The position numbers and the translations under genes were made by a program. A stretch of DNA of 64,000 nt from Cytophagales bacterium. Lineage in GTDB: Bacteria > Bacteroidota > Bacteroidia > Cytophagales > VRUD01. The notes beneath the pieces are model-generated. The model was not told where the DNA came from, ran no database searches, and saw only the letters and a program-made list of their open reading frames with translations. Where the stretch lies: positions 1 to 64,000 of the forward strand of contig VRUD01000007.1 in assembly GCA_019456305.1 (NCBI GenBank), given 5' to 3'. Of this stretch, positions 9,726 through 41,041 are shown in pieces (position 1 is the stretch's first letter; each line of letters begins with the position of its first letter).

Positions 9726-11945
9726 TCAAATATCCCACACAAACGCCCCCTGATGCCTCACTGAAAAGCAGGGAATATCATAGGCTTTCGCTTCTTTTAG
9801 CAACTTTTTACCATAATACCATTTGTTAGAAGAATCGATGATGAGTTTTGTGAAAATAAAATGCTCCTGAAGTTTTCTCAGTGAAATATGTGCATTGTTT
9901 TGGAGCACAATAAAGTCAATATCTATTTTGTAGTAAGTGGGGGTCCGGCTCATGTTCGGGCTGCCACTCCCCAAATTGCCAGGAAATTCCATATCCTTAT
10001 TCAATAATAATATCTTATAACCATTCCAAACAATTAAATCCACAGCCCCCCTAAATCCCCCCAAAGGGGGGACTTTGCCACCCCCTTTGCCTCCTGTGGG
10101 GGATAGGGGATGGCCAGTTCTCCCCCCTTTGGGGGGAGTTAGAGGGGGGCTGGTGGGGCTTGGCGTAATATTCGTTTTTCTGATCCCTTTATTCCACCAA
10201 TGATGAAAAATATGAAATCTTAACTTTGATTTATCATTTAATAAAATTGAATCACAGATCAGCTCATTTTCAAAACCATCAATAAAGTCAATTGCCGAAT
10301 GATCATGAATATTATAGACAACAAAACGTTTTTGATTTTTTTGAATACTTAACTCAATGATCTGAAAAATGCTGAACAAAAATAAGAGTGAAAATAATAC
10401 TACCTGGAATTGAATTTTTTTAAAATAGATAAAAATTAAAAAAATTATAACGATCGCATAGATCAGCCATGATTCAAAAACCGAAATATCAATGCCCTTT
10501 ATAAGCGCAAATGGAAGTTTCTCTATGGTAAATATGAACTGGTTTAACAACCATATCAGCTTTTCAAGCAAAAAGCCAAAGCCCTTAGCCAGCAAAGGAA
10601 TAAATGAAGCGCCAATCGTTGTAAATCCTAAACATAAGATCAATAAAGCAGAAGGAATAACGACCAGGTTTGAGAAAAGAAAACAGGTAGGAAATTGATG
10701 AAAATACAATAAAGCAATAGGAAAGGTAGCAACCTGGGCTGCAATGGAAACACAGGTAATTGCCCAGATCTGATCGCCAACCCAATTGTATATTTCAACG
10801 AGGCCGTATAGCTTTGGCTGTAAATATACAATCCCAAAAACAGCCATATAGGAAAGCTGGAATCCAACTTCCATGATTAAATAAGGATTAAAGCATAGCA
10901 GGCAAAAAGCCGAGACCGCGAGTATATTATAGATATTGGTTTGCCTGCCAAAAGCCCTCGCAACAATAATGAACGAAAACATTGTAACTGCTCTCAACAC
11001 CGAAGGTGAGAGTGCTGTAACAAAAGCATAAAACCACAATACAACCAATAGAATAAAAGCCAGTATTATTTCTCCATACTTGATCTTTCTAAGTCTTCCG
11101 AGGATAAGCATTAAAAATTGAAAAACGATGCCAACGTGCAGTCCTGATACGGCTAGAACGTGCATAGCTCCGGCATTGGAATATGCTTCTTTTATTTCAT
11201 TATCAAGACTGCTTCTTATTCCCAGAATTAAAGCTGAGGCAATTTTATATTCCCTTGATGAATGGATGTATTTACGGAGTATTTTATCGCAGTAGTTCCT
11301 TACCGCTGTGGCCTTTTCTTTTATAACATTAATGGGTTGATAACCACAGACCAGGTAATTTCCGTTCCTTACAAAATGTTGATGGTAAATGTTGTGGAAT
11401 CTTAAATATCTTTTGTAATCAAATTCATTAGGGTTTGAAGGTGGAGTGATAAGGTTGGGTGAACCTTTTATGATTAACCTGTCGCCATATTTCAGCATTT
11501 TGGTAGTCGAATCCTTAGCAAAATATATGAGAATGCGGCCGGAAGCTGTTCCCCACCCATTTTCATTTTTAATTTCAGAAATTAAAAGCTCTGCTTTATA
11601 GCTTTTAGCTTTTTCAGTTAATTCTGAAACAATGAGTCCTTTATAATAATAGATTTCTCCATTGAAATTTAGAATATGATTAGCATCATTAGAATTTGTT
11701 TTTTGTTTTGTTAACAGGATGCCAAATAAGAAAACCGAAATTAAGGCAATGATTCCAAATACCGGCTTAAAATATACAATACGTTCTTTAGGAATAGTGA
11801 AATAGAGGAGGGCATAAGCTGAGATAAAACAAGCGAATAGCTCAAAATAGTGATCAAACTCAAGACCGGTGTAGATATAAAAAAGGATGCCGGCTATGAA
11901 GAAAACGGTGATTCTGAGGAATGAATAAGGCGTCCATTTGATCAT
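9726..11945 (-). CDS. comEC: ComEC/Rec2 family DNA-uptake channel with in-frame repeats
   Basis: ComEC forms the inner-membrane channel for single-stranded DNA in natural transformation. The 739-residue protein has an N-terminal membrane pair and DUF4131-like OB region, then the Competence domain with ASALILGIRSSLDNEIKEAYSNAGAMHVLAVSGLHVGIVF (about 233-272) and many helices to about residue 530. The metallo-beta-lactamase domain is absent, as is usual for short Bacteroidota forms. At 10043-10152 a repeat is read through in frame and gives a low-complexity stretch starting SPPLTPPKGGRTG (about residues 600-635). A second odd insertion, GSGSPNMSRTPT, follows near 9945-9985. Both lie in the C-terminal soluble part, so the channel may remain functional. 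Confidence 0.88.
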   Translation of the reverse strand: MIKWTPYSFLRITVFFIAGILFYIYTGLEFDHYFELFACFISAYALLYFTIPKERIVYFKPVFGIIALISVFLFGILLTKQKTNSNDANHILNFNGEIYYYKGLIVSELTEKAKSYKAELLISEIKNENGWGTASGRILIYFAKDSTTKMLKYGDRLIIKGSPNLITPPSNPNEFDYKRYLRFHNIYHQHFVRNGNYLVCGYQPINVIKEKATAVRNYCDKILRKYIHSSREYKIASALILGIRSSLDNEIKEAYSNAGAMHVLAVSGLHVGIVFQFLMLILGRLRKIKYGEIILAFILLVVLWFYAFVTALSPSVLRAVTMFSFIIVARAFGRQTNIYNILAVSAFCLLCFNPYLIMEVGFQLSYMAVFGIVYLQPKLYGLVEIYNWVGDQIWAITCVSIAAQVATFPIALLYFHQFPTCFLFSNLVVIPSALLILCLGFTTIGASFIPLLAKGFGFLLEKLIWLLNQFIFTIEKLPFALIKGIDISVFESWLIYAIVIIFLIFIYFKKIQFQVVLFSLLFLFSIFQIIELSIQKNQKRFVVYNIHDHSAIDFIDGFENELICDSILLNDKSKLRFHIFHHWWNKGIRKTNITPSPTSPPLTPPKGGRTGHPLSPTGGKGGGKVPPLGGFRGAVDLIVWNGYKILLLNKDMEFPGNLGSGSPNMSRTPTYYKIDIDFIVLQNNAHISLRKLQEHFIFTKLIIDSSNKWYYGKKLLKEAKAYDIPCFSVRHQGAFVWDI
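10043..10152. repeat. CAGCCCCCCTAAATCCCCC-type palindromic repeat inside comEC
   Basis: The left half (CAGCCCCCCTAAA, then CCCCAAAGGGGGG) and the right half (CCCCCTTTGGGGGGAGTTAG, then GGGGGGCTG) are inverted relatives. The same family occurs inside the M14 carboxypeptidase gene at 38403-38517, inside the cupin-methyltransferase gene at 30174-30238, and as a short intergenic relative near 28006-28035. Confidence 0.9.
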
Positions 11946-11988
11946 CTATAAAAAAGTCTTCTAATAAAAAAAATTTCAATACTGGTAA

Positions 11989-12438
11989 CTACCTATTGTT
12001 TTTTTTCAAACTCATCTTATAATGCATAATAGCACATTCATCAAACATTTTACCACTTTTCATAAATCCAAACTTTAAGTAGAGCGGTAAGGCATCAAGC
12101 TGTGAATGCAGATAAACCTGTTTATTTTTATTATTTTTATCTGAATGAATATCATTCAAAACCGCTTTAACTAATTTTGAACCAATTCCATTTCCTCTGT
12201 ATTGCGATAAAACTGCAAATCTTTCCATCTTAATACCTTCGTCTGTATAGCGCCAACGTGCAGTGCCGCAGGGAATCTTATCAATAGTGGCTAAAAAATG
12301 ATGGGAAGAATCTTCAAATTCGTCCAGTTCTTCATCGGAGGGTACAAGCTGTTCTTCCACGAAAACTTCTTTTCTGATAATGAATGCAGTTTCCATATCT
12401 TCCTTTTTGTATATTTTGAAAACATTGATGGACTTCAT
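11989..12438 (-). CDS. GNAT family N-acetyltransferase
   Basis: A 149-residue single-domain acetyltransferase. It has IRKEVFVEEQLVPSDEELDEFE (about 21-42), an entry seen in the ElaA/YjdJ-like GNAT group, and the acetyl-CoA site MERFAVLSQYRGNGIGSKLV (about 71-90; consensus V...RGxGxG/A). The substrate is unknown. It lies 36 bases downstream of fabD on the same strand and may be co-transcribed. Confidence 0.88.
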   Translation of the reverse strand: MKSINVFKIYKKEDMETAFIIRKEVFVEEQLVPSDEELDEFEDSSHHFLATIDKIPCGTARWRYTDEGIKMERFAVLSQYRGNGIGSKLVKAVLNDIHSDKNNKNKQVYLHSQLDALPLYLKFGFMKSGKMFDECAIMHYKMSLKKNNR

Positions 12439-12473
12439 TTTAGGCGCTTATAAATTTATTTTGCAAAAACTTT

Positions 12474-13346
12474 TTATACACAAGAAACTACGGCTTCTCT
12501 ATTGATTTTTCTTACCAATCCCTGCAAAACTTTACCAGGCCCGCATTCAATAAATTCTGTAGCCCCATCTTTGATCATATTCTCAATAGACTGCGACCAC
12601 TTTACAGGTGATGTCAATTGTGCGGATATATTATATTTGATTGCTTCAGTATTATTTGAAGCCAGGCCATTTACATTCTGATAGATCGGGCAGAAGGGAA
12701 TTTTAAAATCAGTGTTGCGGATGGCAGCTTCAAGCTCGACTCTTGCCGGTTCCATCAAAGGTGAATGAAACGCTCCACCTACAGGCAATTCAACAGCTCT
12801 TTTAGCGCCTGCTTTTTTTAATTCTTCACAAGCATCCTTCACACCCTTGATCGTTCCGGATATTACAACCTGGCCCGGGCAATTATAATTGGCAGGTACT
12901 ACTACTTCATCAAACTGGTGACATATATCTCCCACTTTTTTATTTTCCAGGCCAAGTATAGCTGCCATAGTTGATGGGTTTGCCTCACAGGTTTTTTGCA
13001 TAGCTAAAGCCCTTTTTAACACCAATCCTAATCCATCTTCAAACGTTAATACACCATTAGACACTAAGGCTGAAAACTCACCAAGAGAGTGCCCTGCTAC
13101 CATATCCGGTTTAAATGCTAATGAAGTTGAGGCAAGCACAACTGAATGTATAAAAATGGCAGGCTGTGTTACTTTAGTTTGTTTTAACTCTTCATCTGTA
13201 CCGGAGAACATTGTATCTGAAATATTAAATCCCAGTATATCATTTGCTGCCTGGAACATTTTCCGGGCTTCTTCAGACCTGTCGTACAGATCTTTACCCA
13301 TACCAACATATTGAGAGCCCTGACCAGGGAAGATATATGCTTTCAT
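12474..13346 (-). CDS. fabD: malonyl-CoA:ACP transacylase
   Basis: FabD loads malonyl groups onto acyl carrier protein to start fatty-acid elongation. The 290 residues match the family. Motifs: PGQGSQYVGMGKDL at the N-terminus, nucleophile elbow GHSLGEFSALV with the catalytic Ser near residue 87, the AAILGL oxyanion region, and GGAFHSPLM with the partner His near 194. The gene is monocistronic or heads a pair with the GNAT gene. Upstream (13347-13495) are only short hairpins (for example CCCCGATGCAATCGGGG). Confidence 0.96.
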   Translation of the reverse strand: MKAYIFPGQGSQYVGMGKDLYDRSEEARKMFQAANDILGFNISDTMFSGTDEELKQTKVTQPAIFIHSVVLASTSLAFKPDMVAGHSLGEFSALVSNGVLTFEDGLGLVLKRALAMQKTCEANPSTMAAILGLENKKVGDICHQFDEVVVPANYNCPGQVVISGTIKGVKDACEELKKAGAKRAVELPVGGAFHSPLMEPARVELEAAIRNTDFKIPFCPIYQNVNGLASNNTEAIKYNISAQLTSPVKWSQSIENMIKDGATEFIECGPGKVLQGLVRKINREAVVSCV

Positions 13347-13495
13347 AATTTATATTTAGTGTATCGCCTGCCCCGATGCAATCGGGGGAATTTTGATATT
13401 TTTAATAGAATTTATTCCTACATTTTCAGCCAAAGGCTGATCACCCGTTAGGGTGAAATAATCACCTTCTGGTCATTCCGGCTTTGTCGGGACAT

Positions 13496-16165: not shown

Positions 16166-16299
16166 TAATTAAACTTATTACTTTGGTTGTAAAACTACAA
16201 AAAAAAAGTATTATTGCATAAAATATAACCCTATATGTTTTTTGTTCTTTTATATAAAGTTCATAATTTTATGACCAAAAATAAGCATAAATTATAATT

Positions 16300-17163
16300 A
16301 TGGAAGCTACAACATTAAATAAAAAAACCACATCTTTGGCAATCAACAGGATAGGTTTCATCCGCACATATAGAACTGATAAATGGTGGATTGAACCATT
16401 TTTGGTGCTTTCGGGATTGACCTCTTTTATTATTTACTCAACCTGGGCGGCATGGCAGGGTAAATATTACTGGTGGAGCGGTGGGCATGAAGGTTTTGGA
16501 GGTTACCTTTCACCCTTTTACTCCCCACCCTTGTTTATCAAAGAGGGTGTTGAAGGGGTAGCGCCTCTGTGGCATGCCTGGTTCGGAGCGTGGCCTGAGT
16601 GGCTTTTTGACTTTGATTTTTTGCCTGCTTCACCTGCCTGGCTGATCCTTCTATTTCCGCTTTCTTTCCGGTTTACCTGTTATTATTACCGGAAGGCATA
16701 TTACCGGGCTTTTGCCGGATCACCCCCTGCCTGTGCTGTGGGAGCCATACCTCAAAAACCATACAAAGGAGAGACGGGATTGATGACTTTTCAAAATTTG
16801 CATCGTTATGCACTCATCTTTGGCATTATTTTCATATTCCTGCTTTCTTATGATGCCATTCTGGCTTTCTTTAATGACGGTAAATTCGGTGTAGGTGTAG
16901 GCAGCATCGTGCTGCTGATCAATCCTATTCTACTTGGCAGTTATACCTTTGGATGCCATTCGTTCAGACATTTGATTGGTGGAGGAACTGATTGCTTATC
17001 GTGCAATAAACTAAGGTATCACACATGGCGTAAAGTTAGTTTTTTAAATGAACGTCATATGCTGTTTGCATGGGTGAGCTTATTCTGGGTTGGATTTGCT
17101 GATGTTTATGTGAGATTAGTGTCTATGGGGGTGATAACCGATTTGAATACGTGGGGGATTTGA
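16300..17163 (+). CDS. sdhC: succinate dehydrogenase membrane anchor subunit (SdhC-like)
   Basis: A 287-residue protein with about five or six membrane helices: FLVLSGLTSFIIYSTWAAW (about 33-51), AWLILLFPLSFRFTCYYYR, YALIFGIIFIFLLSYDAIL, VGSIVLLINPILLGSYTF and MLFAWVSLFWVGFADVYV. Family marks include YRAFAGSPPACAVG (about 137-150), CHSFRHLIGG and the haem-ligand-type His residues in LHRY and CHSFRH. It anchors the flavoprotein and iron-sulfur subunits (sdhA, sdhB) and passes electrons to quinone. Residues 71-85 (SPPLFIKEGVEGVA) are repeat-derived and in frame, in the loop after the first helix. The flavoprotein gene is 2.4 kb downstream rather than adjacent because of inserted cargo. Confidence 0.85.
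   Translation: MEATTLNKKTTSLAINRIGFIRTYRTDKWWIEPFLVLSGLTSFIIYSTWAAWQGKYYWWSGGHEGFGGYLSPFYSPPLFIKEGVEGVAPLWHAWFGAWPEWLFDFDFLPASPAWLILLFPLSFRFTCYYYRKAYYRAFAGSPPACAVGAIPQKPYKGETGLMTFQNLHRYALIFGIIFIFLLSYDAILAFFNDGKFGVGVGSIVLLINPILLGSYTFGCHSFRHLIGGGTDCLSCNKLRYHTWRKVSFLNERHMLFAWVSLFWVGFADVYVRLVSMGVITDLNTWGI
16512..16560. repeat. in-frame repeat in sdhC
   Basis: CTCCCCACCCTTG and the following TCAAAGAGGGTGTTGAAGGGG are imperfectly inverted and encode SPPLFIKEGVEG. The boundaries are estimated from where the text stops resembling a membrane-protein loop. Confidence 0.6.
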
Positions 17164-17203
17164 TAATTGAAAATTAAACTAAATTTATTGTTAAAAAAAT
17201 ATT

Positions 17204-17428: not shown

Positions 17429-17498
17429 TGAAAATATTAATATTGTTGCAGTTATGCATTTAAAAAGAAAACCTGATTATTGGCTGAAAAGAGTTTAA
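17418..17498 (+). pseudogene. remnant of a ParE-family toxin
   Basis: Read in the frame that stops at 17498, the sequence gives NINIVAVMHLKRKPDYWLKR. This matches the conserved ParE/RelE C-terminus (beta strand, then A-V-x-H-x-x-R-x-P-x-Y-W). A stop codon lies at 17415-17417, so about 75-80 upstream residues are gone. Its position right after the antitoxin gene is where the intact toxin would be. Confidence 0.75.
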
Positions 17499-17504
17499 AA
17501 AATT

Positions 17505-22643: not shown

Positions 22644-22787
22644 CTAATCAGTCGGCAGTTGGCAATCGGCAGTCAGCAAAAAAGCAAAAAAACAATTGCT
22701 GACTGCCGACTGCCGACTGTGGACTGCCGACTGCCGATTGTGGACTGCCGACTGCCGATTGTGGACTGCCGACTGCCGACTGATTAG
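22644..22787. repeat. CGGCAGT/GACTGCC microsatellite-like hairpin block
   Basis: CTAATCAGTCGGCAG at the left end is inverted at the right end. Between them are many tandem copies of GACTGCCGA and TTGTGGACTGCC. The block is between the convergent sdhB and PPTase genes and may act as a terminator hairpin. Confidence 0.95.
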
Positions 22788-22825
22788 ACCTCATTTTCAA
22801 ATTTTCACATTATCAAATTATTTTC

Positions 22826-26440: not shown

Positions 26441-26637
26441 CGGCAGTCTCCAGTCGGCAATCTACAGTCCCCAGTCAGCAAAAAACAATTGCCGACTGCC
26501 GATTGTGGACTGCCGACTGCCGACTGTGGACTGCCGACTGTGGACTGCCGACTGTGGACTGCCGACTGCCGACTGCCGACTGCCGACTGCCGACTGTGGA
26601 CTGTCGACTGCCGATTGCCGACTGTGGACTGCAGACT
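26441..26637. repeat. long CGGCAGT/GACTGCC block
   Basis: About 200 bases made of GCCGACT, GTGGACT and GCCGATT units in variable order, with inverted units (CGGCAGTC) at the left edge. The block is open in several frames on both strands by periodicity alone. It lies 80 bases upstream of folB. Confidence 0.97.
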
Positions 26638-26716
26638 TAAAGGTATTCAATGTGATTTTGAAAAATTATACATTTTGCAACGTTAGTTTAAACTAAAGCC
26701 TTAATTTTTTATATCT

Positions 26717-29879: not shown

Positions 29880-31388
29880 ATGAAAAACATAATCAAATCA
29901 CTAAAAACATTAACTCCTGCTGATTTGGATTTTCGGTCATTAGGGGATTGGGTTTATCAGTTTGATTTTAAAAAGATTGATTATAAGCACTTAATACCTT
30001 CGATACAAGACCCTAAAAATTATGCAAGAAATATATTAACCCTGAAGCCCATAGAATGCGTTATTTTACACTGGCCCCCTCAATGTGAGAGCGCCATTCA
30101 TTACCATGAAGGCTTTTGGGGATATGTAGCAGTGCTTGAAGGGATTGCAGAAAATGTGGAGTATAGGTTGGAAAGCCCCCCTAAATCCCGAGTAGAGACG
30201 CCCAAATTGGGCGTCTCTACTCGGGATTTAGGGGGGCTGCTAATTAAGAGCACTACTTTGCGATCTTTTGAGGGAGGTATATTTCCGGAACCTGATAATG
30301 TAATACACAAAATTATTAATCCTCATTCTGCAGCTTTGGTAACAGCACATTTTTACTACCCTCCTTTGGAAGATTTTGCAGGAATGAAGATCTACGATAT
30401 AGAAAACTGCAAGCTGGGAATTCTCAATGAAAAAGCCCAGACCGCCTCCTGGAATGAGCCTGAAGAGCATTTTCAGAAGATAGTTTCCAACGCTTTCCAG
30501 TATATTCCATATTACGAAAATAATAAAAAGCTTACCCATAAGATATACCCAATAGTACCCAAACCTCATAAAAGCGATATCCGGAAAATGGTAAGCGGTT
30601 ATTATGAGGAGCAGGCAAGAGAATATGACAATTTCGATACCCGCCATGAATCACGAAACGCTTACGTACAAAAAATAAATGAATTGGTTGCCAAAGACCT
30701 TGTTCAGCAAAATTCGGGTTGGCCGCCATCGGATGGCTCTGCTGGTACGCGGGTTGTGCCATCCGATGGATCTGTGGGTAAAATAAATAATATGCTCATA
30801 CTTGCCTGCGGAACCGGCAGGAGGGCAATAGAGATAAAGGAGCAGACTAAGCTGGACTATGAGATCACCTGTGTTGAGATGAGTAAGGAAATGTGTAAAA
30901 TAGCTCAGCAGAGAGGTTTGAATGTGATCAATGCTGCGTGGTTAGATGCAGACCTCAGAAATGGATTACTTTTTGATGCAGTTACTTTCCTTTATGCCTT
31001 TGGGCATATTCCCAGCGAGGAAGAAAGGAAGAAAGTGTTGATGAAAGTAAATAAACATTTAAACATAGGAGGCCACTTTTATTTCGATGCTTTTAATATC
31101 AAAGATAAGAACGAATGGGGGGCCAGCGCTGTTAAAAATTATGAAAAGTTTAATCTTTCTAATTTTGATTATCAGAAAGGAGATGTTTTTTATAAAAAAG
31201 TGGATGGAGAACAGTTCGCTTTCCTGCATTATTTTACAGAAGATGAAATAATTAGCTTGTTGGGAAAGACTGGCTTTGAACTAGACCAAATGCTCAATAT
31301 TGGATATGTAAATAAGTCCGGAGAAGTATTAAATGCTAAAGATGAAGGAGCGTTTTTTATTAAAGCTAAAAAAGTGAAACATCAATAG
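29880..31388 (+). CDS. cysteine-dioxygenase-like cupin fused to a SAM methyltransferase
   Basis: This 502-residue protein has two domains. Residues about 1-195 resemble type I cysteine dioxygenase: a cupin with CVILHWPPQCESAIHYHEGFWGYVAVLEG (about 60-88; H-x-H...E-G-x-x) and a later VIHKIINPHSAALVTAHFYYPPL. Residues about 235-500 are a class I methyltransferase: YYEEQAREYDNFD, the SAM site MLILACGTGRRAIEIK (about 305-320), FDAVTFLYAFGHIPSEEER. Two repeat-derived segments are read through: SPPKSRVETPKLGV...RDLGG inside the cupin and WPPSDGSAGTRVVPSDGSVG just before the SAM site. Iron dioxygenase activity on a thiol with methylation of the product is a guess. It overlaps the convergent protease gene by 23 bases. 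Confidence 0.82.
   Translation: MKNIIKSLKTLTPADLDFRSLGDWVYQFDFKKIDYKHLIPSIQDPKNYARNILTLKPIECVILHWPPQCESAIHYHEGFWGYVAVLEGIAENVEYRLESPPKSRVETPKLGVSTRDLGGLLIKSTTLRSFEGGIFPEPDNVIHKIINPHSAALVTAHFYYPPLEDFAGMKIYDIENCKLGILNEKAQTASWNEPEEHFQKIVSNAFQYIPYYENNKKLTHKIYPIVPKPHKSDIRKMVSGYYEEQAREYDNFDTRHESRNAYVQKINELVAKDLVQQNSGWPPSDGSAGTRVVPSDGSVGKINNMLILACGTGRRAIEIKEQTKLDYEITCVEMSKEMCKIAQQRGLNVINAAWLDADLRNGLLFDAVTFLYAFGHIPSEEERKKVLMKVNKHLNIGGHFYFDAFNIKDKNEWGASAVKNYEKFNLSNFDYQKGDVFYKKVDGEQFAFLHYFTEDEIISLLGKTGFELDQMLNIGYVNKSGEVLNAKDEGAFFIKAKKVKHQ
30174..30238. repeat. 65-base perfect palindrome inside a coding region
   Basis: Two exact 32-base arms around one central A: AGCCCCCCTAAATCCCGAG outside, TAGAGACGCCCAA inside. 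The core is the GACGCCCAAATTGGGCGTC family and the outside the CCCCCCTAAATCCC family. The host frame stays open through it. Confidence 0.95.
30726..30769. repeat. CCATCGGATGG repeat inside a coding region
   Basis: CCATCGGATGG and CCATCCGATGG bound a 22-base centre with CTGGTACGCGGG. Relatives occur at 34434-34476, 38220-38267 and 43307-43346. It codes for PPSDGSAGTRVVPSDGS. Confidence 0.85.
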
Positions 31389-33459
31389 AGGAATTTTTTT
31401 TAAAAATAGCGCCCTTCATATTGTTTAAAAAAGTAGAATTGGTTGCTTCAGGTGTGAATTGAAACAGCTTTTTTGTAGGTAAATTCATAGTGCCCCACAT
31501 TAGGTATTGGCATTTTCCATTTGTTATTTCTTTCTTTATATGACAGAGCACCATCTGTGTAGCTTTCTCAACCAGCATGTATTGTTGCTTTGTGAAAATA
31601 GTCTGAAATTGCCCTTTATATACTTCTTTTACCACCCCCTTTTCAACAAGAGCAATTAGGTATCCATTGGAATTGTATATATCGAAATTGATATCAATAA
31701 ATTCTTCGTTCCAATCTTTAAAAGATAGAAATGGCTGGCCGCTATATACGAACATCTGTTCATAGTAGTAACTACCTCCCAGCTTAATGGTACATTCTGA
31801 TAATCCTGATTCGGAACTCCCCTGCTCTAAGCGGGGAGACTCTGATGAGTCGGGCCTCAATTTTCGAGTTTCGAATTTCGAGTTTCGAATTTCGAGTTTC
31901 GAATGGCGGGATTTAGATTGGGACTCTGATGAGTAGCCCTCCGATAGTTGTTTATAATACCTAAAGTTTGTAGAATCTCCCAATGCTTCATAAGCTGCAC
32001 TTAAATAACCATAAGCATATCCATTATCAGGATTCATGATGAGCAGTTTTTTATAGCTTTCAATTGATTTATCATAATTGCCTTTAGCAAACCAGGCAAG
32101 CCCCAAAATCCTGTAACAATACTGATCATTTGGATACAATGTTGCAAGTTTATTGCCGTAATAAATGGCGTTGTCTAATTGCCTTTCACGTTCATCAGTG
32201 ATTACCAAATTTCGGTAGATTATGCCGGGTACTGCATTTTCTCTTGGAACAGCCCGCATTATATCCATTACTATATCCTCTTCTTTATCGCTTCTGCTAT
32301 ATTGCCAATATATTGAAGACAAAGATAAAAGAGCATCGGGGTTCAGCGTGTCAAGAGCAAAGCCCTTTTTAGCATATTTTAGGGCTAACTCGTAATTTCC
32401 ATTATTGGCATAGCTCACGGCTAATTTAATGTAAACGCTCACATCTTCTGTATTACTGTTGACAATGTACTTTTCATAAAATTTTATTGCTTTATCATCG
32501 TTTAATCGGTTATAATAAATGTCTGCTAAATATTTATATATTTCTGTAACTGCCATAATACTATCTACAATCCTGGAAATTTGCTGATTATTTTCCATTG
32601 CAGCTGTAAGGTAATGCAGCATAAGTTCAGAATTTCCTGTTTGATAATATGCATATCCTAAATATATAAATGCCTCAATATTCTGAGGTTCAAAAATTGT
32701 TACCTTTTTAAAATAATTGATAGAAACCTTATATTGACCTCTATTAAATTCGTAAATCCCCATTTGAAGATAATAATTTGCCTTTATGGATTTATCCTCA
32801 TGGTCTTGATTAATTAATTCATCAAAAGCATTGACTGGAATGGCAAAATTCAGATTTTGGGCATTGGTAGCCGATACGGAAACATAGGTACTGATACCTA
32901 TCAATTCTCCTTTTACATTCACGATTGCTCCACCACTTGAACCAGGAGATAGCGGACATGAAACCTGTATGTAGGACATAGAGTTGTCATCACTTTTTCG
33001 AATCCCGCTGACAATACCTTCTGTTATAGTGTTTTCATAACCTTTAGGACTTCCTACAGAAAACACCTTTTCTCCTACCTGTACTTTATCACTGTTTGCC
33101 ATGGTAACAGCGCCAAATGTCTTTTCGGATATCTTTAGCAGCATCATATCTTTTTGGATATCAAACCCAAGTATCACAACATCCCTGATAATTGAATCCT
33201 CGTGTTTGACAATGATATGTTGACCACCTTGAATTAAATGAAAATTGGTAATTACAAGCCCCTTTTTATCTATCACTACCCCGCTGCCTTGCCCTATGTT
33301 ATTACACAAGGCGTCATGCGAATAAAGTGTAAGCACTGAACCTGTTACTTTTTTGTAGATCTTTTCTGCATCTACCTTTTGTGCCTTAGCTGTCTCGCAT
33401 ATATAGCAAAGGTGCCCGGCAACCGATGACCATAAAATTATCTTTAATACCTTTTTCAT
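31366..33459 (-). CDS. HtrA-like serine protease with TPR repeats
   Basis: After a signal segment (KVLKIILWSSVAGHLCYICETAKA) comes a trypsin-like S1C domain. With numbering from the upstream ATG at 33474 the triad is H79 (ITNFHLIQ), D109 (QKDMMLLKI) and S180 (SPGSSGGAI). There is no PDZ domain. About eight TPR units follow (for example NIEAFIYLGYAYYQTGNSELMLHYL), then a repeat-derived stretch (KSRHSKLEIRNSKFETRKLR and on to SGLSE), then a C-terminal domain shared with the 33645-34238 protein. The start at 33459 (MKKVLK) is preferred because the upstream codons lie in a MITE. It is likely a periplasmic quality-control or regulatory protease. Confidence 0.85.
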   Translation of the reverse strand: MKKVLKIILWSSVAGHLCYICETAKAQKVDAEKIYKKVTGSVLTLYSHDALCNNIGQGSGVVIDKKGLVITNFHLIQGGQHIIVKHEDSIIRDVVILGFDIQKDMMLLKISEKTFGAVTMANSDKVQVGEKVFSVGSPKGYENTITEGIVSGIRKSDDNSMSYIQVSCPLSPGSSGGAIVNVKGELIGISTYVSVSATNAQNLNFAIPVNAFDELINQDHEDKSIKANYYLQMGIYEFNRGQYKVSINYFKKVTIFEPQNIEAFIYLGYAYYQTGNSELMLHYLTAAMENNQQISRIVDSIMAVTEIYKYLADIYYNRLNDDKAIKFYEKYIVNSNTEDVSVYIKLAVSYANNGNYELALKYAKKGFALDTLNPDALLSLSSIYWQYSRSDKEEDIVMDIMRAVPRENAVPGIIYRNLVITDERERQLDNAIYYGNKLATLYPNDQYCYRILGLAWFAKGNYDKSIESYKKLLIMNPDNGYAYGYLSAAYEALGDSTNFRYYKQLSEGYSSESQSKSRHSKLEIRNSKFETRKLRPDSSESPRLEQGSSESGLSECTIKLGGSYYYEQMFVYSGQPFLSFKDWNEEFIDINFDIYNSNGYLIALVEKGVVKEVYKGQFQTIFTKQQYMLVEKATQMVLCHIKKEITNGKCQYLMWGTMNLPTKKLFQFTPEATNSTFLNNMKGAIFKKNSSIDVSLF
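31800..31935. repeat. in-frame TTTCGAA repeat block in the protease gene
   Basis: Tandem TTTCGAGTTTCGAA units (31862-31904) are flanked by GACTCTGATGAGT on both sides (31839-31851 and 31922-31934) and by CCCCTGCTCTAAGCGGGG. It encodes the low-complexity link between TPR and C-terminal domains. Confidence 0.85.
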
Positions 33460-33468
33460 TATTCTAAT

Positions 33469-33586
33469 GGGCATCTCTAAAAACTACACCATACATTCCC
33501 CTCTACCTGCCCGCCACGGCCAAGGCAGGCGGGTCAAGAGGGGCAAGGGGTGTGTTTTAAAAAATATGTAGTTTTTAGAGATGCCC
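33469..33586. mobile_element. MITE-like element with GGGCATCTCTAAAAACTAC termini
   Basis: Nineteen-base ends are perfect inverted repeats (GGGCATCTCTAAAAACTAC against GTAGTTTTTAGAGATGCCC), flanked on both sides by the direct repeat TAAT (33465-33468, 33587-33590), which looks like a target-site duplication. The 118-base element has no ORF; its centre contains the CTGCCCGCC...GGCAGGCGGG hairpin. It sits 10 bases before the protease ATG. Confidence 0.88.
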
Positions 33587-33599
33587 TAATAATAATTTA

Positions 33600-33607
33600 T
33601 ATCTTTG
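33600..33607 (+). promoter_or_regulatory. -7 box for the 33645 gene
   Basis: TATCTTTG fits TAnnTTTG, 37 bases before the ATG. It lies 14 bases outside the MITE. Confidence 0.5.
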
Positions 33608-33644
33608 CAAGATAAGTTAATTTCATTAAAACTGTAATAAAATT

Positions 33645-34238: not shown

Positions 34239-34493
34239 AAATCCAAAGGGGTAAACATCCCAAAATACTCCAGGGTTAAAATCTCTATCGATAAAAAAAA
34301 TAGTGTAGTGGACGGGCATAATGCAGAGACGAGGTATGTAGAGACGTTGCATGCAACGTCTCTACATACCTCGTCTCTGCACTCATTAGGGTTGAGCATT
34401 GACCATGCTGTAATAAAGGGGAGGCAATCATCGGATGGCTCTATAGCATCAGGGGTGGAGCCATCCGGTGAATATGCTGGCAAAGCTAATGCT
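34239..34493 (+). pseudogene. duplicated fragment of the M14 carboxypeptidase N-terminus
   Basis: In frame directly after the stop of the previous gene, the text PKYSRVKISIDKKNS matches QKYSRVKIPIDKKHA at residues 24-38 of the carboxypeptidase (38042-41041). A palindrome (GTAGAGACGTTGCATGCAACG core, 34340-34367) is inserted, then 114 bases (34380-34493) are identical to 38171-38284. There is no start codon or signal peptide. Confidence 0.85.
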
Positions 34494-34646
34494 ACTGTTA
34501 ATAGAATTGATGTTTTAATCAGTTGGAATTTCAGACATATTGTAAACCTTAACAAAATAAGACTTTTTAACTCTGTAAACCTAAAATTAGGTTTACCGCA
34601 AATTGATATAAGAACCCTGAAAGAATTAATTAACTATGAAGACTAA
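34494..34646 (+). pseudogene. C-terminal fragment of a PIN-type toxin
   Basis: The frame continues into VNRIDVLISWNFRHIVNLNK and IRLFNSVNLKLGLPQIDIRT. The string D-x-L-I-S-W-N-F-x-H-I-V-N...N-x-V-N-L-x-L-G is the characteristic end of a PIN-domain toxin family. About 100 upstream residues are missing, replaced by the carboxypeptidase fragment. Confidence 0.75.
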
Positions 34647-34734
34647 AAAAGAAATAAAAAAAAGTGACTTTAATAGTGTTAAATTCTTTCGTTCTGTAAA
34701 AAAAAAGATTTCTAAAAGTCTTGTAGGAACTTGA
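34636..34734 (+). pseudogene. truncated partner of the dead PIN toxin
   Basis: A 32-codon ORF overlaps the toxin fragment by 11 bases: MKTKKEIKKSDFNSVKFFRS, then VKKKISKSLVGT. Such D-x-V-K-x-x-R-x-x-x-x-x-I-S openings are typical of the small antitoxin encoded beside this PIN family. The second half is missing. The overlap preserves the original gene order. Confidence 0.55.
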
Positions 34735-35195
34735 AACATTACCGCTTTTCTCCTGTACAACGTGGTGAAAGATGACAGTTTGAACTCAAACCAGAAATAT
34801 TTTTAGAAAAACCCCTGGAGTAACTAAAATAAAATACTACTTTTACATCATCACACCCCGCATCCCGAGTACTCGGGATGCGGGGTGTGCGGGACACTTA
34901 AAGGTTGAACGTGCCTAACATAAAACCATTTAGTACCTAAAAATCTAAATTAAAAAGAGGAAAAGTACGTCCTATTGTGAATAAAGAGCTGCATTAAGAC
35001 AATATGTTGCAAAAATTAATAATAATAGGGTCAACCAGCACCCAGTAACCAGCATCCAGTAACTGATAATTTGATGCATGATGTTAATAATGCTTACAAT
35101 TTAAGTTGTTTTTTTTAACTTAGATTTTTAGGTAGTATCTTTTTTGCCCTGAACACCAAAAATTGTATTCTTTAATCCAAACCAATTTTAAAACC
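34735..35195. other. gene-free stretch of repeats
   Basis: It contains a perfect 38-base palindrome at 34852-34889 (CACACCCCGCATCCCGAGT and its inverse) built on CCCGAGTACTCGGG, and a direct repeat of CCAGCACCCAGTAA/CCAGCATCCAGTAA at about 35036-35061. Otherwise AT-rich; no gene or RNA recognised. Confidence 0.8.
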
Positions 35196-36662
35196 ATGAA
35201 AAAACTTCTATTCTTATCCCTGTTTTTGCACATAATTTTTTGTGCAAAAGCCCAGCCAGGCTCCATTGACCTCTCCTTTACCGTAGGAACGGGAGCAAAC
35301 GATTGGGTCGAGACAACCTCTATACAAAGCGATGGGAAAATTATTATCGGTGGTAACTTCACTTCCTATAATGGAACAGCAATAAACCGCATTGCCCGTC
35401 TCAATACCGATGGTACCCTTGACAGTACTTTTACCGTAGGTACGGGAGCAAACAGTTCTGTCAATACAACCTCTATACAAAGCGATGGGAAAATTATTAT
35501 TGGTGGCAGTTTCTGGTCCTATAATGGAACAGCAATATACAATATTGCCCGCCTCAATACCGATGGTACCCTTGATAGTACTTTTACCGTTGGTACGGGA
35601 GCAAGCTTTTATGTCTATACAACCTCTATACAAAGCGATGGGAAAATCATTATCGGTGGTGTGTTCACTTCTTATAATGGAACGGCAAGAAATTATATTG
35701 CCCGCCTCAATACCGATGGAACTCTTGACGGAACTTTTACCGTAGGAACGGGAGCAAGCAGTTATGTCAGGACAACCTCTATACAAAGCGATGGGAAAAT
35801 TATTATCGGTGGTAGCTTCACTTCCTATAATGGAACAGCAAGAAATTATATTGCCCGCCTCAATGCAGATGGTACCCTTGACAGTACTTTTACCGTTAGT
35901 ACGGGAGCAAGTTATGATGTCTATACAACCTCTATATAAAGCGATGGGAAAATTATTATCGGTGGATGGTTCACTACCTATAATGGAACAGCAAGAAATT
36001 ATATTGCCCGCCTCAATGTGGATGGTACCCTTGACGGAACTTTTAACCCTGGAACGGGAGCAAACGATTATGTCGATGCAACCTCTATACAAAGCGATGG
36101 GAAAATTATTATCGGTGGCAGGTTCACATCCTATAATGGAACAGGGAGGAACCGGATTGCAAGATTGTTAAATTGTTTCCCATCCATACCGACAATTACT
36201 CAAAACGGGGATACACTTTCTTCCTCTACTGCCAACAGTTATCAGTGGTTCTTTAACGGAGATACAATTCCCGGTGAGACAAGCCAGATTTACACAGCCA
36301 CACAATCAGGTTTTTACATGGTTTCCATAACTGACGCCAACGGTTGTTCGGCTGCATCAGACTCATTGAGCGTAACCATTTCAAGCATTAAAGAATATAA
36401 ATCAATTTATGGTTTAAAAATATATCCCAATCCCAATACCGGAGAGTTCAATATTGTAATGCTTGTCCCGAACGAAGTGAGGGAACTCCAGCTAAAAATC
36501 GTCAACAATTTGGGGCAGGTTTTATTTAGAGAAAAGCTAAAACAATTTAAAGGCATCTACGAAAAGCAACTTGATTTAAATAAATATCCGGCAGGCATCT
36601 ATAAACTCCAATTAATAAGCAAAAAAGGAGTAATCAATAAACAGATAATAATAATTTATTAA
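35196..36662 (+). pseudogene. secreted delta-60 repeat propeller protein with T9SS domain, broken by one stop codon
   Basis: The frame opens with a signal peptide (MKKLLFLSLFLHIIFCAKA) and runs through six to seven near-identical 51-residue delta-60 repeats (153 bases each; SIQSDGKIIIGGxFTSYNGT, IARLNTDGTLDSTFTVGTGA). At 35937-35939 the expected CAA of SIQSDGK is TAA, a single C-to-T change. The same frame then continues to a type A sorting domain (KIYPNPNTGEFNIVMLV...PAGIYKLQLISKKG) ending at 36662. The 35163 upstream ATG is less likely than 35196, which begins the signal peptide. Recent inactivation or a sequencing error are both possible; the repeats are otherwise well kept. Confidence 0.9.
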
Positions 36663-36705
36663 GTTTTTTTAAACTTTTTTCCATTGTAACCATTTATTGC
36701 TGTTT

Positions 36706-37272
36706 TTACAGTTTAGGCGAAATATTGAGCTTTAACACTTTTGATGTAAATTTTCCATATCCACTATAAAATTCACGGAATTTCCCCTGCCTGCGCTGAA
36801 GCTTCGGCAGGCAGGCATTTGTGTTTTCAAAGCCGGTCACTTCGTTATCTTTAGGGTCGATGGACCAGAATTCCTGTACGCCATATTTTTCATAAATTCT
36901 TTTTTTAATTTTAATATCATAATAAGCGGTAGATGGTGATAAAATTTCAATTACCATATCAGGCGCTCCATGGATACCATCATCTCTTACAATATCACTT
37001 CTTTGGTTTGAAACAAAAACAATATCGGGCTGCAAAACATTATTTTCATCAAAATATACATCTATTGGAGCGCAACGGACTTCTCCTATCGGGTTGTCTT
37101 TCAGAAAGATTCTTATTTGGGTTAAAATATCAGCCACTATGCCCTGGTGCCCGTAAGTCGGTGCCGGCTCGCCCAATGCTATTAATGCGCCATTAATGAG
37201 TTGGTGAGGGTCGCCTTCCTCAAGCTGTCTATAATCTTCAACTGTGTAATGTTTTTGAGCTGTTGTTATCAT
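36706..37272 (-). CDS. Uma2 family (DUF820) endonuclease-like protein
   Basis: A 188-residue protein with the Uma2 PD-(D/E)XK pattern: YTVEDYRQLEEGDPHQLINGALI (about 9-31), VRCAPIDVYFDENNVLQPDIVFVS (about 60-83), GAPDMVIEILSPSTAYYDIKIKKRIYEKYGVQEFWSIDPK (about 97-136). E-I-L-S-P-S-T with the later Lys are the conserved nuclease residues. Family members are very abundant in cyanobacteria and filamentous bacteria, and their biological role is unknown. Residues 144-153 (NACLPKLQRR) come from an in-frame repeat (36786-36816). Confidence 0.9.
   Translation of the reverse strand: MITTAQKHYTVEDYRQLEEGDPHQLINGALIALGEPAPTYGHQGIVADILTQIRIFLKDNPIGEVRCAPIDVYFDENNVLQPDIVFVSNQRSDIVRDDGIHGAPDMVIEILSPSTAYYDIKIKKRIYEKYGVQEFWSIDPKDNEVTGFENTNACLPKLQRRQGKFREFYSGYGKFTSKVLKLNISPKL
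36786..36816. repeat. CCTGCCTGC hairpin inside the Uma2 gene
   Basis: CCTGCCTGCGCTGAAG and CTTCGGCAGGCAGG form a stem with one mismatch. A related CCTGCCCGCC...GGCAGGCGGG hairpin is the centre of the MITE at 33469-33586. Confidence 0.8.
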
Positions 37273-37578
37273 TTCCTGCTTTTTTTATTCTGCAATAAAA
37301 ATAAATATTTAATAACTCAAATATAAACAACTTTTATTAAACAAAAAAAAATTGATAATTAAAATTATTAAATTGTTATATTGCTATATTGCTAAGATGT
37401 AAATTGTTTTTTTCATAATTTAAAGGAGTTAATCTCCCTGCGCTATAGCCTCGGGAGGTAAAATTTCCATGATTATCTAAATCAGGAAAATCACTAAATT
37501 CTGATTATCATGTTTCATACAAAAGTTTTTTGTAATTTCGCATCGTAATTATCTGTTGATATTATATCCTTAACTGTT
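37273..37578. other. gene-free AT-rich stretch
   Basis: A GCGCTATAGCCTCGGG motif at 37439-37454 recurs inverted at 37938-37956 as CCCGAGGCGCTATAGC. No promoter or RNA is clear. Confidence 0.5.
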
Positions 37579-37821
37579 ATGGAAACGTATTTGAAAGAAA
37601 AACTGAAAGTTGATATGGATCTCTTGAAAATGTTTGCTGTCATCATACTAATTTTAGGTGGTGGTATTATTTCAATATTTTTAACAAATCAATTTATTCT
37701 AAATATCTATGAATTATTTTTAGTCATTTTTGGTTGTATATTAATAGTGGTATTTTTTATTGCTGCTGTAAAGAGATATATTAACATTCATAAAAACTTA
37801 AATAAACTCAAAAATTCATGA
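37579..37821 (+). CDS. small two-TM membrane protein
   Basis: The 80-residue protein has two hydrophobic helices (FAVIILILGGGIISIFLTNQF, about 20-40, and YELFLVIFGCILIVVFFIAAV, about 48-68) and basic ends. No family is recognised. Its stop codon overlaps the start of a 35-codon membrane ORF (ATGA at 37818-37821), which suggests coupled translation of two small membrane partners. Confidence 0.6.
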   Translation: METYLKEKLKVDMDLLKMFAVIILILGGGIISIFLTNQFILNIYELFLVIFGCILIVVFFIAAVKRYINIHKNLNKLKNS

Positions 37822-37925
37822 ATTATGTTTTTTTTATTGTAGTCACTTTTATTGCTGTAGCTCTTATTTCCTTGGTTGTTGCTTTCGAAATCATAGACAG
37901 AAAAGCAGCTAAAGAAGATAAATAA
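37818..37925 (+). CDS. 35-residue single-TM microprotein
   Basis: Too short for routine gene calls. It reads MNYVFFIVVTFIAVALISLV, then VAFEIIDRKAAKEDK: one membrane helix followed by a charged tail. The 4-base ATGA overlap with the preceding two-TM gene is strong support for translation. Function unknown. Confidence 0.55.
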   Translation: MNYVFFIVVTFIAVALISLVVAFEIIDRKAAKEDK

Positions 37926-38002
37926 GTCTGAATCCCCGTCCCGAGGCGCTATAGCCAAAATACTTCCGAAATCTTTAAGATTTAGGAAGTTTATTTAATG
38001 TG

Positions 38003-38026
38003 GTGTCAGGTGTTTCCACCTGACAC
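38003..38026. repeat. GTGTCAGGTG palindrome
   Basis: An exact copy of the 4819-4842 element (arms GTGTCAGGTG and CACCTGACAC, loop TTTC), 15 bases before the carboxypeptidase ATG. Confidence 0.9.
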
Positions 38027-38041
38027 CCATTACTATCCACG

Positions 38042-41041
38042 ATGAAAAAGTTTTTGATCTATACACTTACAATGCTGCTGTGTCATGTATTACCGCTTGA
38101 GACAATTGCACAGTATCAGAAATACTCGAGGGTTAAAATCCCTATTGATAAAAAACATGCTCGTACACTACACTCATTAGGGTTGAGCATTGACCATGCT
38201 GTAATAAAGGGGAGGCAATCATCGGATGGCTCTATAGCATCAGGGGTGGAGCCATCCGGTGAATATGCTGGCAAAGCTAATGCTTTTATAATAACCGATC
38301 TGTCAGCTTATGAAATTAACCTGCTGGATCAAAACGGATTTGCACTTCAAATATTAATTGATGATGTATCAAAATTTTATCAGGATAGGAGTAAGAAAGA
38401 CCGCAGCCCCCCTCTAACTCCCCCCAAAGGGGGGAGAACTGGCCAACCCTTAAATCCCCCAAGAGGGAAAAGCGATGGCAAAGTCTCCCCCTTTGGGGGA
38501 GATTTAGAGGGGGCTGCTGTTTGCCCTGCACCTAACCCAAACGACACCATTACCACACCCGGTGGCTTTTCCCTCGGCTCAACGGGCGGGTTTTTTACCT
38601 ACAATGAAATGTTGGCCCATCTTGATACGATGGCTGCTCAATACCCGGGTATTATTTCAGTAAAACAGCCCATTGATACGTTCACTACGATTGAAGGACG
38701 TCCTGTTTTCCGGGTTAAGATTTCAGATAATCCGCTCGCAGATGAAAGCAGTACGGAGGCCCAGGTTTTATATACTGCCATTCACCATGCCCGTGAACCG
38801 GTGTCCATGTCGCAGTTGATATTCTATATGTATTATTTGTTAGAAAATTATGGGCAGGATACGCTCGTAACAAGTATTGTTGACCGGACGGAAATGTTTT
38901 TTGTCCCCTGTGTCAACCCTGACGGGTATATTTACAACGAAACTACCAATCCATCTGGCGGGGGGATGTGGCGAAAGAACAGGAGAAACAACGGAGACGG
39001 CACCTTTGGCGTTGACCTTAACAGAAATTACGGGTATAACTGGGGCTTTGATGATTTTGGCTCATCGCCCAATACAAACAGTGAGACCTATAGAGGTACC
39101 GCACCATTTTCTGAACCAGAAACACAGGCGATGCAATATTTATGCGAACAACACAATTTTAAGATCGCCTTAAATTATCACGCATTTGGGAATTTGTTGA
39201 TATATCCGTGGGGTTATGACTATGGAATTTATACACCCGATTCAGCGCGTTTTGTACAATTTGCCCTCCTGTTAACAAAAAATAATAATTATGTATATGG
39301 TACGGGCGACCAAACCGTTGGTTATATCGTAAACGGTGACGCTGATGACTGGATGTATGGTGAGCAGGGCACAAAAAATATGATCCTTGCCATGACCCCT
39401 GAAGTGGGCAGCTCAAATGATTTTTTCTGGCCTGCGCCTTCAAGGATCATTCCATTATGCAAAGACAACATTTTTGCAAATCTCTATATGGCCATGCTGT
39501 CCGGCTCTTTTGTGAATGTAGAACCGGAAAGCGGCCTTTTTATTAGTAGTTACAACGGTACCATTAAATTTGATCTGACAAGCATAGGCCTGTTATTACC
39601 AACCAACGTCTCTGTGAGTCTGTATAGTACAAATCCTTACGTAACAGGTATTGACAGCGCCAAAAATTTTACCGGCATTACAGACATGACTCCTGTAACG
39701 GATTCCTTTTCTTTTTCTTTAGACAACCTTATTCCCAAGAATACTGAAATTGAGTTTGTTTTTATGGTAAATGACGGGCTTAATGTCTATGAATTTGTTG
39801 TGACTAAATTGTTTAATAATTCTCTGCCTTTTTTATCTGATAGCTTAAATAATTTAACTAACTGGAGCACTGCTAACTGGGGAATTACTACCGCTCAATA
39901 TTATTCACCTCCTTCATCAATAACGGATTCACCATTTGGAAATTATTTGCCAAATGACAGCAATTCCGTAACTTTAAATCAACCGGTTGATCTGACTGGA
40001 GCCGTAGATGCTTATCTTACTTTTTGGGCAAAATGGGATATAGAATCCAACTGGGATTACCTGCAGGTAAAAGCATTTAATGGAAGTAACAACCAGCCGC
40101 TTTGTGGTTTCTATACAAGACCCGGCTCGGGTTTTTTCCAGCCATCCGGAGAACCTTTATACGATGGCATTCAGGGTAACTGGGTGCAGGAAATTATGAG
40201 CTTAAACGATTACCTCGGCCAGACAATTAACATAAGATTTGTACTCAACAGCGATGGAGGGCTTGAAAAAGATGGTTTCTATTTTGATGATTTCCAGGTT
40301 TTTGTAAGTTATCCCCAGTCCCCTGTTGTTAACCTTGGCGATACTATTTCATTTTGTTTGGGTGATTCAGTAACGCTTGACGCAGGTAATCCGGGAAGTA
40401 ATTATCTCTGGTCAACGGGCGATACTACTCAAACGATCGTTGTTGACTCTGTCGGGATATACAGTGTTACAGTCACCGATTCAATATGGATCGTTAGCGA
40501 TAGCGTTGTTGTCGTCTCATTGAGTACGTTTCCTACAGCAGCTTTTATTGATTCTGTAAATGGATTTTCAGCAAGCTTTATCAATATTTCTACAAACGCT
40601 GAATTATACTTTTGGGATTTTGGCGATTCCACTACCTCAAACTTATCTGATCCTGTTCATACTTATAATAATGCTACATGGTATTATGTGTGTTTAATAG
40701 CAGAAAATGCCTGCGGTTCAGATACCGTTTGTGATTCTGTTACAGTGACTGCAACTGGAATAAAAAATGTGGAAACTGATTTTGTAACCCTTCAAAACTA
40801 TCCTAACCCAGCCGCAGATTTCACAACGATAAAATATAAAATATCTGGTGAACTTGAAAACCCTGTTATCGAAATATTCAATTTATTAGGAGTTTCAGTT
40901 GGAAAATATGCCATTAACAATGCAGAAGGTTATCTTGAACTTGCTACATACAAATTAACACCCGGCATATATTATTATCGTTTGAAAGCTGCAAATTATA
41001 CCTCTGCATTTTTGAAGATGGTAGTGTTAAAAAAGCGATAA
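38042..41041 (+). CDS. secreted M14 zinc carboxypeptidase with T9SS sorting domain
   Basis: A 999-residue protein with signal peptide (MKKFLIYTLTMLLCHVLPLETIA). The M14 domain covers about 180-490: zinc ligands in AIHHAREPVS (H-x-x-E), substrate Arg in DLNRNYGYNWG, the third ligand in LNYHAFGNLLIYPWG and catalytic Glu in MTPEVGSSNDFF. Later come a CUB/jelly-roll-like region, a PKD-like domain (FLWDFGDSTTSNLSDPVHTY-like, about 856-875) and a type A sorting domain (LQNYPNPAADFTTIKYKI...TPGIYYYRLKAANYTS). Before the catalytic domain two repeat-derived insertions interrupt the propeptide (about 44-80 and 119-160). Since the propeptide is dispensable for catalysis, the enzyme may tolerate them. 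Confidence 0.92.
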   Translation: MKKFLIYTLTMLLCHVLPLETIAQYQKYSRVKIPIDKKHARTLHSLGLSIDHAVIKGRQSSDGSIASGVEPSGEYAGKANAFIITDLSAYEINLLDQNGFALQILIDDVSKFYQDRSKKDRSPPLTPPKGGRTGQPLNPPRGKSDGKVSPFGGDLEGAAVCPAPNPNDTITTPGGFSLGSTGGFFTYNEMLAHLDTMAAQYPGIISVKQPIDTFTTIEGRPVFRVKISDNPLADESSTEAQVLYTAIHHAREPVSMSQLIFYMYYLLENYGQDTLVTSIVDRTEMFFVPCVNPDGYIYNETTNPSGGGMWRKNRRNNGDGTFGVDLNRNYGYNWGFDDFGSSPNTNSETYRGTAPFSEPETQAMQYLCEQHNFKIALNYHAFGNLLIYPWGYDYGIYTPDSARFVQFALLLTKNNNYVYGTGDQTVGYIVNGDADDWMYGEQGTKNMILAMTPEVGSSNDFFWPAPSRIIPLCKDNIFANLYMAMLSGSFVNVEPESGLFISSYNGTIKFDLTSIGLLLPTNVSVSLYSTNPYVTGIDSAKNFTGITDMTPVTDSFSFSLDNLIPKNTEIEFVFMVNDGLNVYEFVVTKLFNNSLPFLSDSLNNLTNWSTANWGITTAQYYSPPSSITDSPFGNYLPNDSNSVTLNQPVDLTGAVDAYLTFWAKWDIESNWDYLQVKAFNGSNNQPLCGFYTRPGSGFFQPSGEPLYDGIQGNWVQEIMSLNDYLGQTINIRFVLNSDGGLEKDGFYFDDFQVFVSYPQSPVVNLGDTISFCLGDSVTLDAGNPGSNYLWSTGDTTQTIVVDSVGIYSVTVTDSIWIVSDSVVVVSLSTFPTAAFIDSVNGFSASFINISTNAELYFWDFGDSTTSNLSDPVHTYNNATWYYVCLIAENACGSDTVCDSVTVTATGIKNVETDFVTLQNYPNPAADFTTIKYKISGELENPVIEIFNLLGVSVGKYAINNAEGYLELATYKLTPGIYYYRLKAANYTSAFLKMVVLKKR
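38171..38284. repeat. 114-base duplication, copy in the carboxypeptidase gene
   Basis: Identical to 34380-34493. It contains the ATCGGATGGCTC...GAGCCATCCGGTGA palindrome of the CCATCGGATGG family and is read in frame (SLGLSIDHAVIKGRQSSDGS and beyond). Confidence 0.95.
38403..38517. repeat. CAGCCCCCC palindromic repeat inside the carboxypeptidase gene
   Basis: Starts GCAGCCCCCCTCTAACTCCC and ends with the inverse GAGATTTAGAGGGGGCTGC. It encodes SPPLTPPKGGRTGQPL and PPRGKSDGKVSPFGGDLEGA. The comEC copy (10043-10152) is read in frame on its own coding strand and gives the near-identical SPPLTPPKGGRTG. Confidence 0.9.

Follow-up and report, generated by a model that had tools for sequence, protein, structure and literature searches.

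How palindromic repeats can lie inside unrelated protein-coding genes without disrupting the reading frame is the question raised by the window analyzed here, 64,000 nt of DNA (contig VRUD01000007.1, bases 1-64000) from a 4.245-Mb genome that is split into 159 contigs and contains runs of N; the gene content, with T9SS sorting domains, points to Bacteroidota. The initial annotation posited such in-frame insertions in sdhC, comEC, a cupin-methyltransferase (twice), an HtrA-TPR protease, a Uma2 gene and an M14 carboxypeptidase (twice). We compared these genes with homologues or paralogues and searched for further copies of the repeats in stretches adding up to 2.0 Mb of the 4.2-Mb genome, about half of it. 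Because the nearest relatives among the compared genomes have only the order in common with this one, the insertion edges are mostly good to a few residues. The genome sample contains more than 100 palindromes of set strength, compared to 0 in an equal-size third-order Markov control, and chance is therefore excluded; not every repeat family is a simple palindrome, the HtrA repeat being a tandem array. The families that recur in coding DNA are F1 (CCGAGTACTCGG), F2 (CCCCC..GGGGG), F3 (AGAGACG..CGTCTCT), F9 (CCCGCC..GGCGGG) and F11 (CCTGCC..GGCAGG).

Within comEC (9726..11945, minus strand; Pfam Competence and DUF4131, with homologues in relatives), an F2 element lies in frame at 10041..10151 on the minus strand (AGCCCCCCTAAATCC..GAGTTAGAGGGGGGCT, read as SPPLTPPKGGRTGHPLSPTGGKGGGKVPPLGGFRGAV), with 108 nt between its ends and 57 similar places in the 2.0 Mb. 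The encoded insert of about 37 aa, which starts with SPPLTPPKGG, is missing from the aligned homologues. In the AlphaFold model of ComEC (mean pLDDT 85), confidence is low in two places: residues 599-632, which correspond to the F2 insert and fall below pLDDT 50 in an otherwise confident model, and residues 656-670. A second short segment of ComEC (window 9936-9980, residues about 656-670, around PGNLGSGSPNMSRT) has no counterpart in homologues and is disordered in the model; when it was looked for as a repeat elsewhere, none was found. The cupin-methyltransferase (29880..31388, plus strand; Pfam methyltransferase matches) contains two inserts that are lacking in both homologues found (L271, L272). 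The first, of about 19-20 extra aa, is a nested perfect palindrome at 30174..30238 with 32-nt arms that are 100% complementary, running from F2 ends through an F1 half (CCCGAGT..ACTCGGG) to the F3 core AGAGACGCCCAAATTGGGCGTCTCT; the second is an in-frame hairpin-type insert of about 22 aa at 30720..30779 on the plus strand (CCATCGGATGG..CCATCCGATGG), with a similar sequence at one other place in the 2.0 Mb.

The Uma2 gene (36706..37272, minus strand; PF05685) has an F11 hairpin insert of 30 nt, or 10 codons, at 36785..36816 (minus strand): nucleotide alignment with two paralogues from the same genome (L404, L405) reveals exactly 30 extra nt and hence a nucleotide-level empty site, with edges located to within a few nt. 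Two inserts are present in the M14 carboxypeptidase with a T9SS sorting domain (38042..41041, plus strand; PF00246 and Por_Secre_tail). The first (KGRQSSDGSIASGVEPSGEYAGKAN, 38207..38281, plus strand) adds 23 aa that homologues L360 and L361 lack; the sole other copy of its DNA is a 114-nt duplicate at 34380-34493, and the dispersed type is limited to its hairpin. The second, at 38405..38518 on the plus strand, is an F2 element in the linker between the propeptide and the catalytic domain, with 111 nt between its ends and 38 similar places in the 2.0 Mb; alignment shows a segment of about 29 aa or more that is absent or different in both homologues. The HtrA-TPR protease (31366..33474, minus strand; Trypsin_2 at residues 63-194, TPRs up to residue 504) has, after the last TPR, a linker repeat region at 31807..31923 (minus strand) with a TTCGAGTTTCGAAT tandem array of 7/14-nt units (tandem copies at 31850-31905), similar sequences being present at 11 other places in the 2.0 Mb. 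In the neighborhood of these genes, an in-frame stop at window 35937-36020 seems to split a gene of 153-nt repeats (ORFs 35163-35939 and 36018-36662, in the same frame).

Taken gene by gene, the proposed insertions hold up for comEC and Uma2 (one each) and for the cupin-methyltransferase and M14 carboxypeptidase (two each), where homologues or paralogues are free of them, and are less firmly established in HtrA, for which the dispersed repeat is the evidence; five genes with seven sites stand, HtrA on this weaker evidence. Nowhere did the same segments occupy the same places in homologues: the inserts are absent from every homologue examined. The sdhC segment (16522..16566, plus strand) is neither a repeat nor an insertion, given that homologues L355-L358 have the same length there and that it recurs at 0 other places in the 2.0 Mb.

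Comparable inserts are found in hosts outside the window. PurQ has 24 extra residues, formed by a nested F3/F1 palindrome, that are missing from every homologue shown; PriA carries two inserts that its homologues lack; and genome searches detected one copy each of purQ and priA. Compared to homologues, the kynurenine monooxygenase contains 29 extra residues; the MoeA insert of 20 residues, or 60 nt, has the exact length of its palindrome; and the inserts in an acyl-CoA dehydrogenase and a split transketolase comprise 27 aa and about 48 aa, respectively. The AlphaFold2 model of PurQ (pTM 0.84) matches the Thermotoga PurQ, and the insert accounts for its sole long stretch of low confidence (residues 189-208). 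Low-confidence stretches thus coincide with the inserts in the ComEC and PurQ models, whose folds are intact apart from them, suggesting that these inserts are probably flexible loops.

To assess how repeats relate to the reading frame, the 180-nt flanks of each copy were scored by a codon-phase model for which random positions served as the calibration. For F1, F2, F3, F9 and F11 together, 88 in-frame copies were counted in the 2.0 Mb versus 5 apparent frameshifts; the model yields 5.6% false frameshifts at random positions, so that the five match the error rate of the method and copies within genes leave the frame intact in essentially every case. The earlier statement that no repeat breaks the frame accordingly holds genome-wide within error. 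That all families read through is correct for these five but not for F13 (heptamer), F6 and F15, for which no in-frame coding copy was seen (0 of 88 in the 2.0 Mb); in F6 and F15, stops close five of the six frames. Arrays of 7-nt units (GACTGCC, GACTGTG) at window 22649-22803, 26444-26640, 158-227 and 63042-63109 form large imperfect hairpins and are never in-frame coding. The 8-mer ATCGGATG, considered as a sixth family (49% in frame), was left out of the counts, most of its matches being chance or part of a tandem-repeat protein.

Under a rough neutral estimate, with random insertion and one third of the copies keeping the frame while the others are lost, 22% of the survivors are expected to lie in frame in genes. 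The in-frame genic shares of F1 (23%), F3 (25%), F9 (23%) and F11 (33%), all mostly extragenic families, agree with random insertion followed by a reading-frame filter, and because of this match, the in-frame pattern originally noticed is, for most families, what selection would be expected to spare. The absence from genes of F6 and F15, with their stops, conforms to the same pure survivorship, in which intergenic repeats insert anywhere, the in-frame genic copies are the remainder spared by selection, and no adaptation to genes is involved. As an account of the entire phenomenon, however, survivorship appears rather unlikely in view of F2.

F2 is the family behind SPPLTPPKGGRTG, and 37 complete copies, that is, copies with both ends present, were identified. 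Their length is divisible by three in 32 of 37 cases (p=3e-11); 36 of the 37 (97%) lie in an ORF that runs for at least 150 nt on both sides, compared to 60% at random (p=2e-7); and 31 (84%) are in frame between coding flanks without a frameshift. Unpaired F2 ends are located in ORFs in 24 of 30 cases. Eight of the sampled stretches had been picked for holding F2 matches; when the tests were rerun without them (n=27), the p-values were 4e-7 for length, 3e-5 for ORFs and 3e-3 for in-frame coding, and the results also hold without the window. Frame filtering alone predicts about 16-22%, which the enrichment of F2 in genes exceeds; because the loss of frame-breaking genic copies cannot lift the genic share above the random share, genes must be favored by the insertion or the retention of F2. 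Alone among the families, F2 behaves like a truly gene-dwelling element. Its ends were detected 65 times in this genome, whereas a search of 395 further genomes from the phylum gave none.

Gene restriction and frame-compatible lengths, along with the same peptide text in unrelated proteins, are also what would be expected if F2 encoded a functional linker or localization peptide under positive selection. The hosts, however, are functionally unrelated, spanning about 20 Pfam families such as MurF-alanine racemase, DNA polymerase III delta, a MiaB-type radical SAM enzyme, transketolase and acyl-CoA dehydrogenase; the peptides come in two reading frames (SPPLTPPKGG and SPPKSPQRGD); the F2 interiors vary from copy to copy; and the ComEC model is disordered at the insert. 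We regard a functional peptide as highly improbable. Instead, we tentatively propose, at somewhat below even confidence, that F2 is a mobile element inhabiting gene interiors, with retention or insertion favoring translated DNA, that its interior is rebuilt by hairpin-tip exchange with the length kept a multiple of three, and that the same exchange, genome-wide, tops old palindromes with new ones and perfects their arms.

The window contains several nested palindromes. In intergenic DNA, an F3 core lies within a GGCAGTTGGCAA palindrome with fully complementary arms (2839..2897), another F3 core within AGCGCATAGCCCCGCCGGT arms (54678..54740) and an F1 core within ACCCCGCAT arms (34852..34889). 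At 34322..34381, an F3 core is nested in another F3 palindrome with perfect 30-nt arms. A duplicated N-terminal fragment of the M14 gene (window 34308-34646, with 114 nt identical to that gene) adjoins the latter palindrome. In this genome, 39 of 52 copies of the F3 core are flanked by perfectly complementary arms of at least 7 nt, which mostly differ per copy. Elsewhere, complementarity usually ends at the GT..AC foot, with GT before the core in 121 of 134 copies and AC after it in 115 of 134, and exceeds 6 nt in 1 of 134 copies. A GTAG (or GT[AG]G) foot is present in F3 only and lacking in F1 and F2. Within the class of the window's genome, the core is rare, a single copy being present in 294 other genomes compared to 32 in this one. 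The exact 25-nt F3 core (L121-L239) is scattered over many phyla, including Bacteroidota, Chloroflexi, Ignavibacteria, Patescibacteria and Spirochaetia, and occurs in isolates as well. Long, copy-specific perfect arms on this phyla-wide REP core appear, judging from the sequences compared, to be confined to this genome.

The idea that the two F3 arms stem from a single native flank through inverted copying does not hold in general, although it may apply to some unique arms: about half of the arms examined can be assigned to other repeat families in the genome, and both arms of the second PriA insert are non-native. At paralogous sites, F1 has swapped 6-10 nt of a host repeat for its own 14-16 nt, and also comes as a clean insertion (L113); F3 has replaced the loop of the hairpin of one repeat, in two different forms. 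At that F3-topped repeat, the left arm was altered to fit the right one in L104 and the right arm to fit the left one in L028, and these changes in opposite directions are the putative mark of template-switch correction.

Perfect stems can arise and persist through template switching (PMC8794818), and the mutation of quasipalindromes by this route (PMC8794818, PMC7202029) explains the correction of arms to perfect complementarity. Together with tip replacement, the opposite corrections in L104 and L028 and the lack of target duplication at F2, this might suggest that no transposition is involved, hairpins growing and swapping tips through replication errors while gene conversion spreads the repeats. 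By itself, however, quasipalindrome template switching fails to explain how a fixed core lands in many hairpins; the identical F3 core found across phyla without the arms implies that it moves as a unit, and clean insertions exist (L113; Uma2). Template switching alone is therefore an improbable explanation. The palindromes could conceivably have been misassembled in a fragmented, probably metagenome-derived draft, palindromes being difficult to assemble and the 159 contigs containing runs of N, yet the ORFs continue in frame into conserved downstream domains, the 16-nt F1 core is below the usual assembly word length, F3 is also found in isolate genomes, and a false graph path would be expected to copy a whole flank rather than 7-25 nt. 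An assembly artefact seems to us very unlikely.

On balance, the explanation that we favor, with a degree of confidence modestly above even, is that these repeats belong to several families of small, non-autonomous palindromes of REP/MITE type, which have proliferated in the genome through a history of four steps. First, a folded single-stranded intermediate would insert, in many cases into a hairpin already present, whose old tip it replaces; no duplication of the target would be formed. Second, template switching within the hairpin, as one locus suggests, would mend mismatches and yield perfect arms. Third, as the statistics show, genic copies with a frame shift or a stop are lost, whereas those in frame survive, adding a mostly disordered peptide to loops and linkers. 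Fourth, F2, nearly all copies of which are genic and whose length and remodeled interiors are multiples of three, may have come to use genes as its main habitat, its open frames giving flexible linkers rich in Pro, Gly and Lys. A search for target-site duplications at the 37 F2 copies found none, the mean best direct repeat being 1.0 versus 1.34 in mismatched flank pairs; in this respect, F2 differs from a MITE of a DDE transposon.

The likeness to Rickettsia palindromic elements (RPEs) that was pointed out at the outset is apt in the sense of "works like", and extends to the presence of several families at once, here in a Bacteroidota-type genome. RPEs are described as palindromic repeats located in frame in unrelated, conserved genes, with several families and a tolerated peptide, nearly half of the first-reported ones being in ORFs (PMC10969869). 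The resemblance is one of behavior, a palindromic repeat in frame in unrelated protein-coding genes; in contrast to RPEs, the present elements are from another phylum, 97% of the F2 copies lie in ORFs, and the repeats show exchanged interiors and nesting of families. RPEs are the closest functional parallel, without any claim of RPE membership. TnpAREP subclass 2.4, from Bacteroidetes and Cyanobacteria, includes "double foot" REPs and in-frame REP insertions inside its own tnpAREP genes (PMC6006769). Similarly, F3 has a double foot, GTAG..CTAC, and the RAYT-like gene in L104 has an in-frame array mid-gene; in contrast to REP/TnpAREP systems, no RAYT was found clearly flanked by F1, F2 or F3, F2 is not extragenic here, and the F3 arms are copy-specific in this genome only. 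Because in-frame REP insertions have been reported earlier in Bacteroidetes and Cyanobacteria (PMC6006769), the phenomenon in general is already known. In several phyla, REPs have been found inside ORFs, and intragenic GTAG/CGTC REPs, for example those of Opitutus terrae and R. conorii, lie wholly within ORFs, often as dimers encoding 20-30 aa (PMC3733652); the present elements differ in the near restriction of F2 to genes and, as regards the features considered, in tip replacement and nesting. In the perfect inverted repeats within coding genes of Nematomorpha mitochondria, both arms encode conserved native protein (PMC6649704), whereas the palindromes described here are extra inserted sequence.

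In the open-licence literature, we found no description of a palindrome family almost confined to genes and with frame-compatible lengths beside unconfined families, nor of systematic hairpin-tip replacement, with new palindromes on old tips and perfected arms. The findings look like RPE/REP-like biology in a new host, with the gene restriction of F2 and tip replacement looking like new variants. If this reading is correct, the genome, with 4.2 Mb and internal empty sites, would add a case of protein-coding palindromes outside Rickettsia that is both independent and richer, and a clear new case for the study of "selfish" DNA living within working proteins. It would become testable how small palindromes move, tip replacement hinting at single-stranded hairpin intermediates, and whether mobile DNA adapts to in-frame life in proteins, with the other families of the same genome serving as a natural control for F2. 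In annotation and protein databases, such peptides would create spurious similarity between unrelated proteins.

The likeliest agent of mobility would be a Y1/HUH nuclease of the TnpAREP (RAYT) type, since a nuclease that acts on single strands fits insertion at hairpin tips without duplication. The genome yielded seven Y1_Tnp matches; the proteins from L336 and L104 match the REP-associated tyrosine transposase model, both under the NCBIfam cut-off. Among the seven genes, none is clearly flanked by F1, F2 or F3, and no F3 lies within 1.5 kb of any of them; L336 has only two F1 copies nearby, whereas L115 has one F1 hairpin and two F2 hairpins in its vicinity. The RAYT-like gene at L104:6281-7105 has an in-frame TCATCGGATGA-type repeat array (85 aa) between its two halves, which is absent from the paralogue in L336. 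Several of the five further Y1 transposase genes (L335, L016, L017, L115 and L334) are flanked on both sides by small palindromes of their own, such as ATCGCTCCGTTAGGAGCGAAAC and AACCGTTAAAACGGTT.
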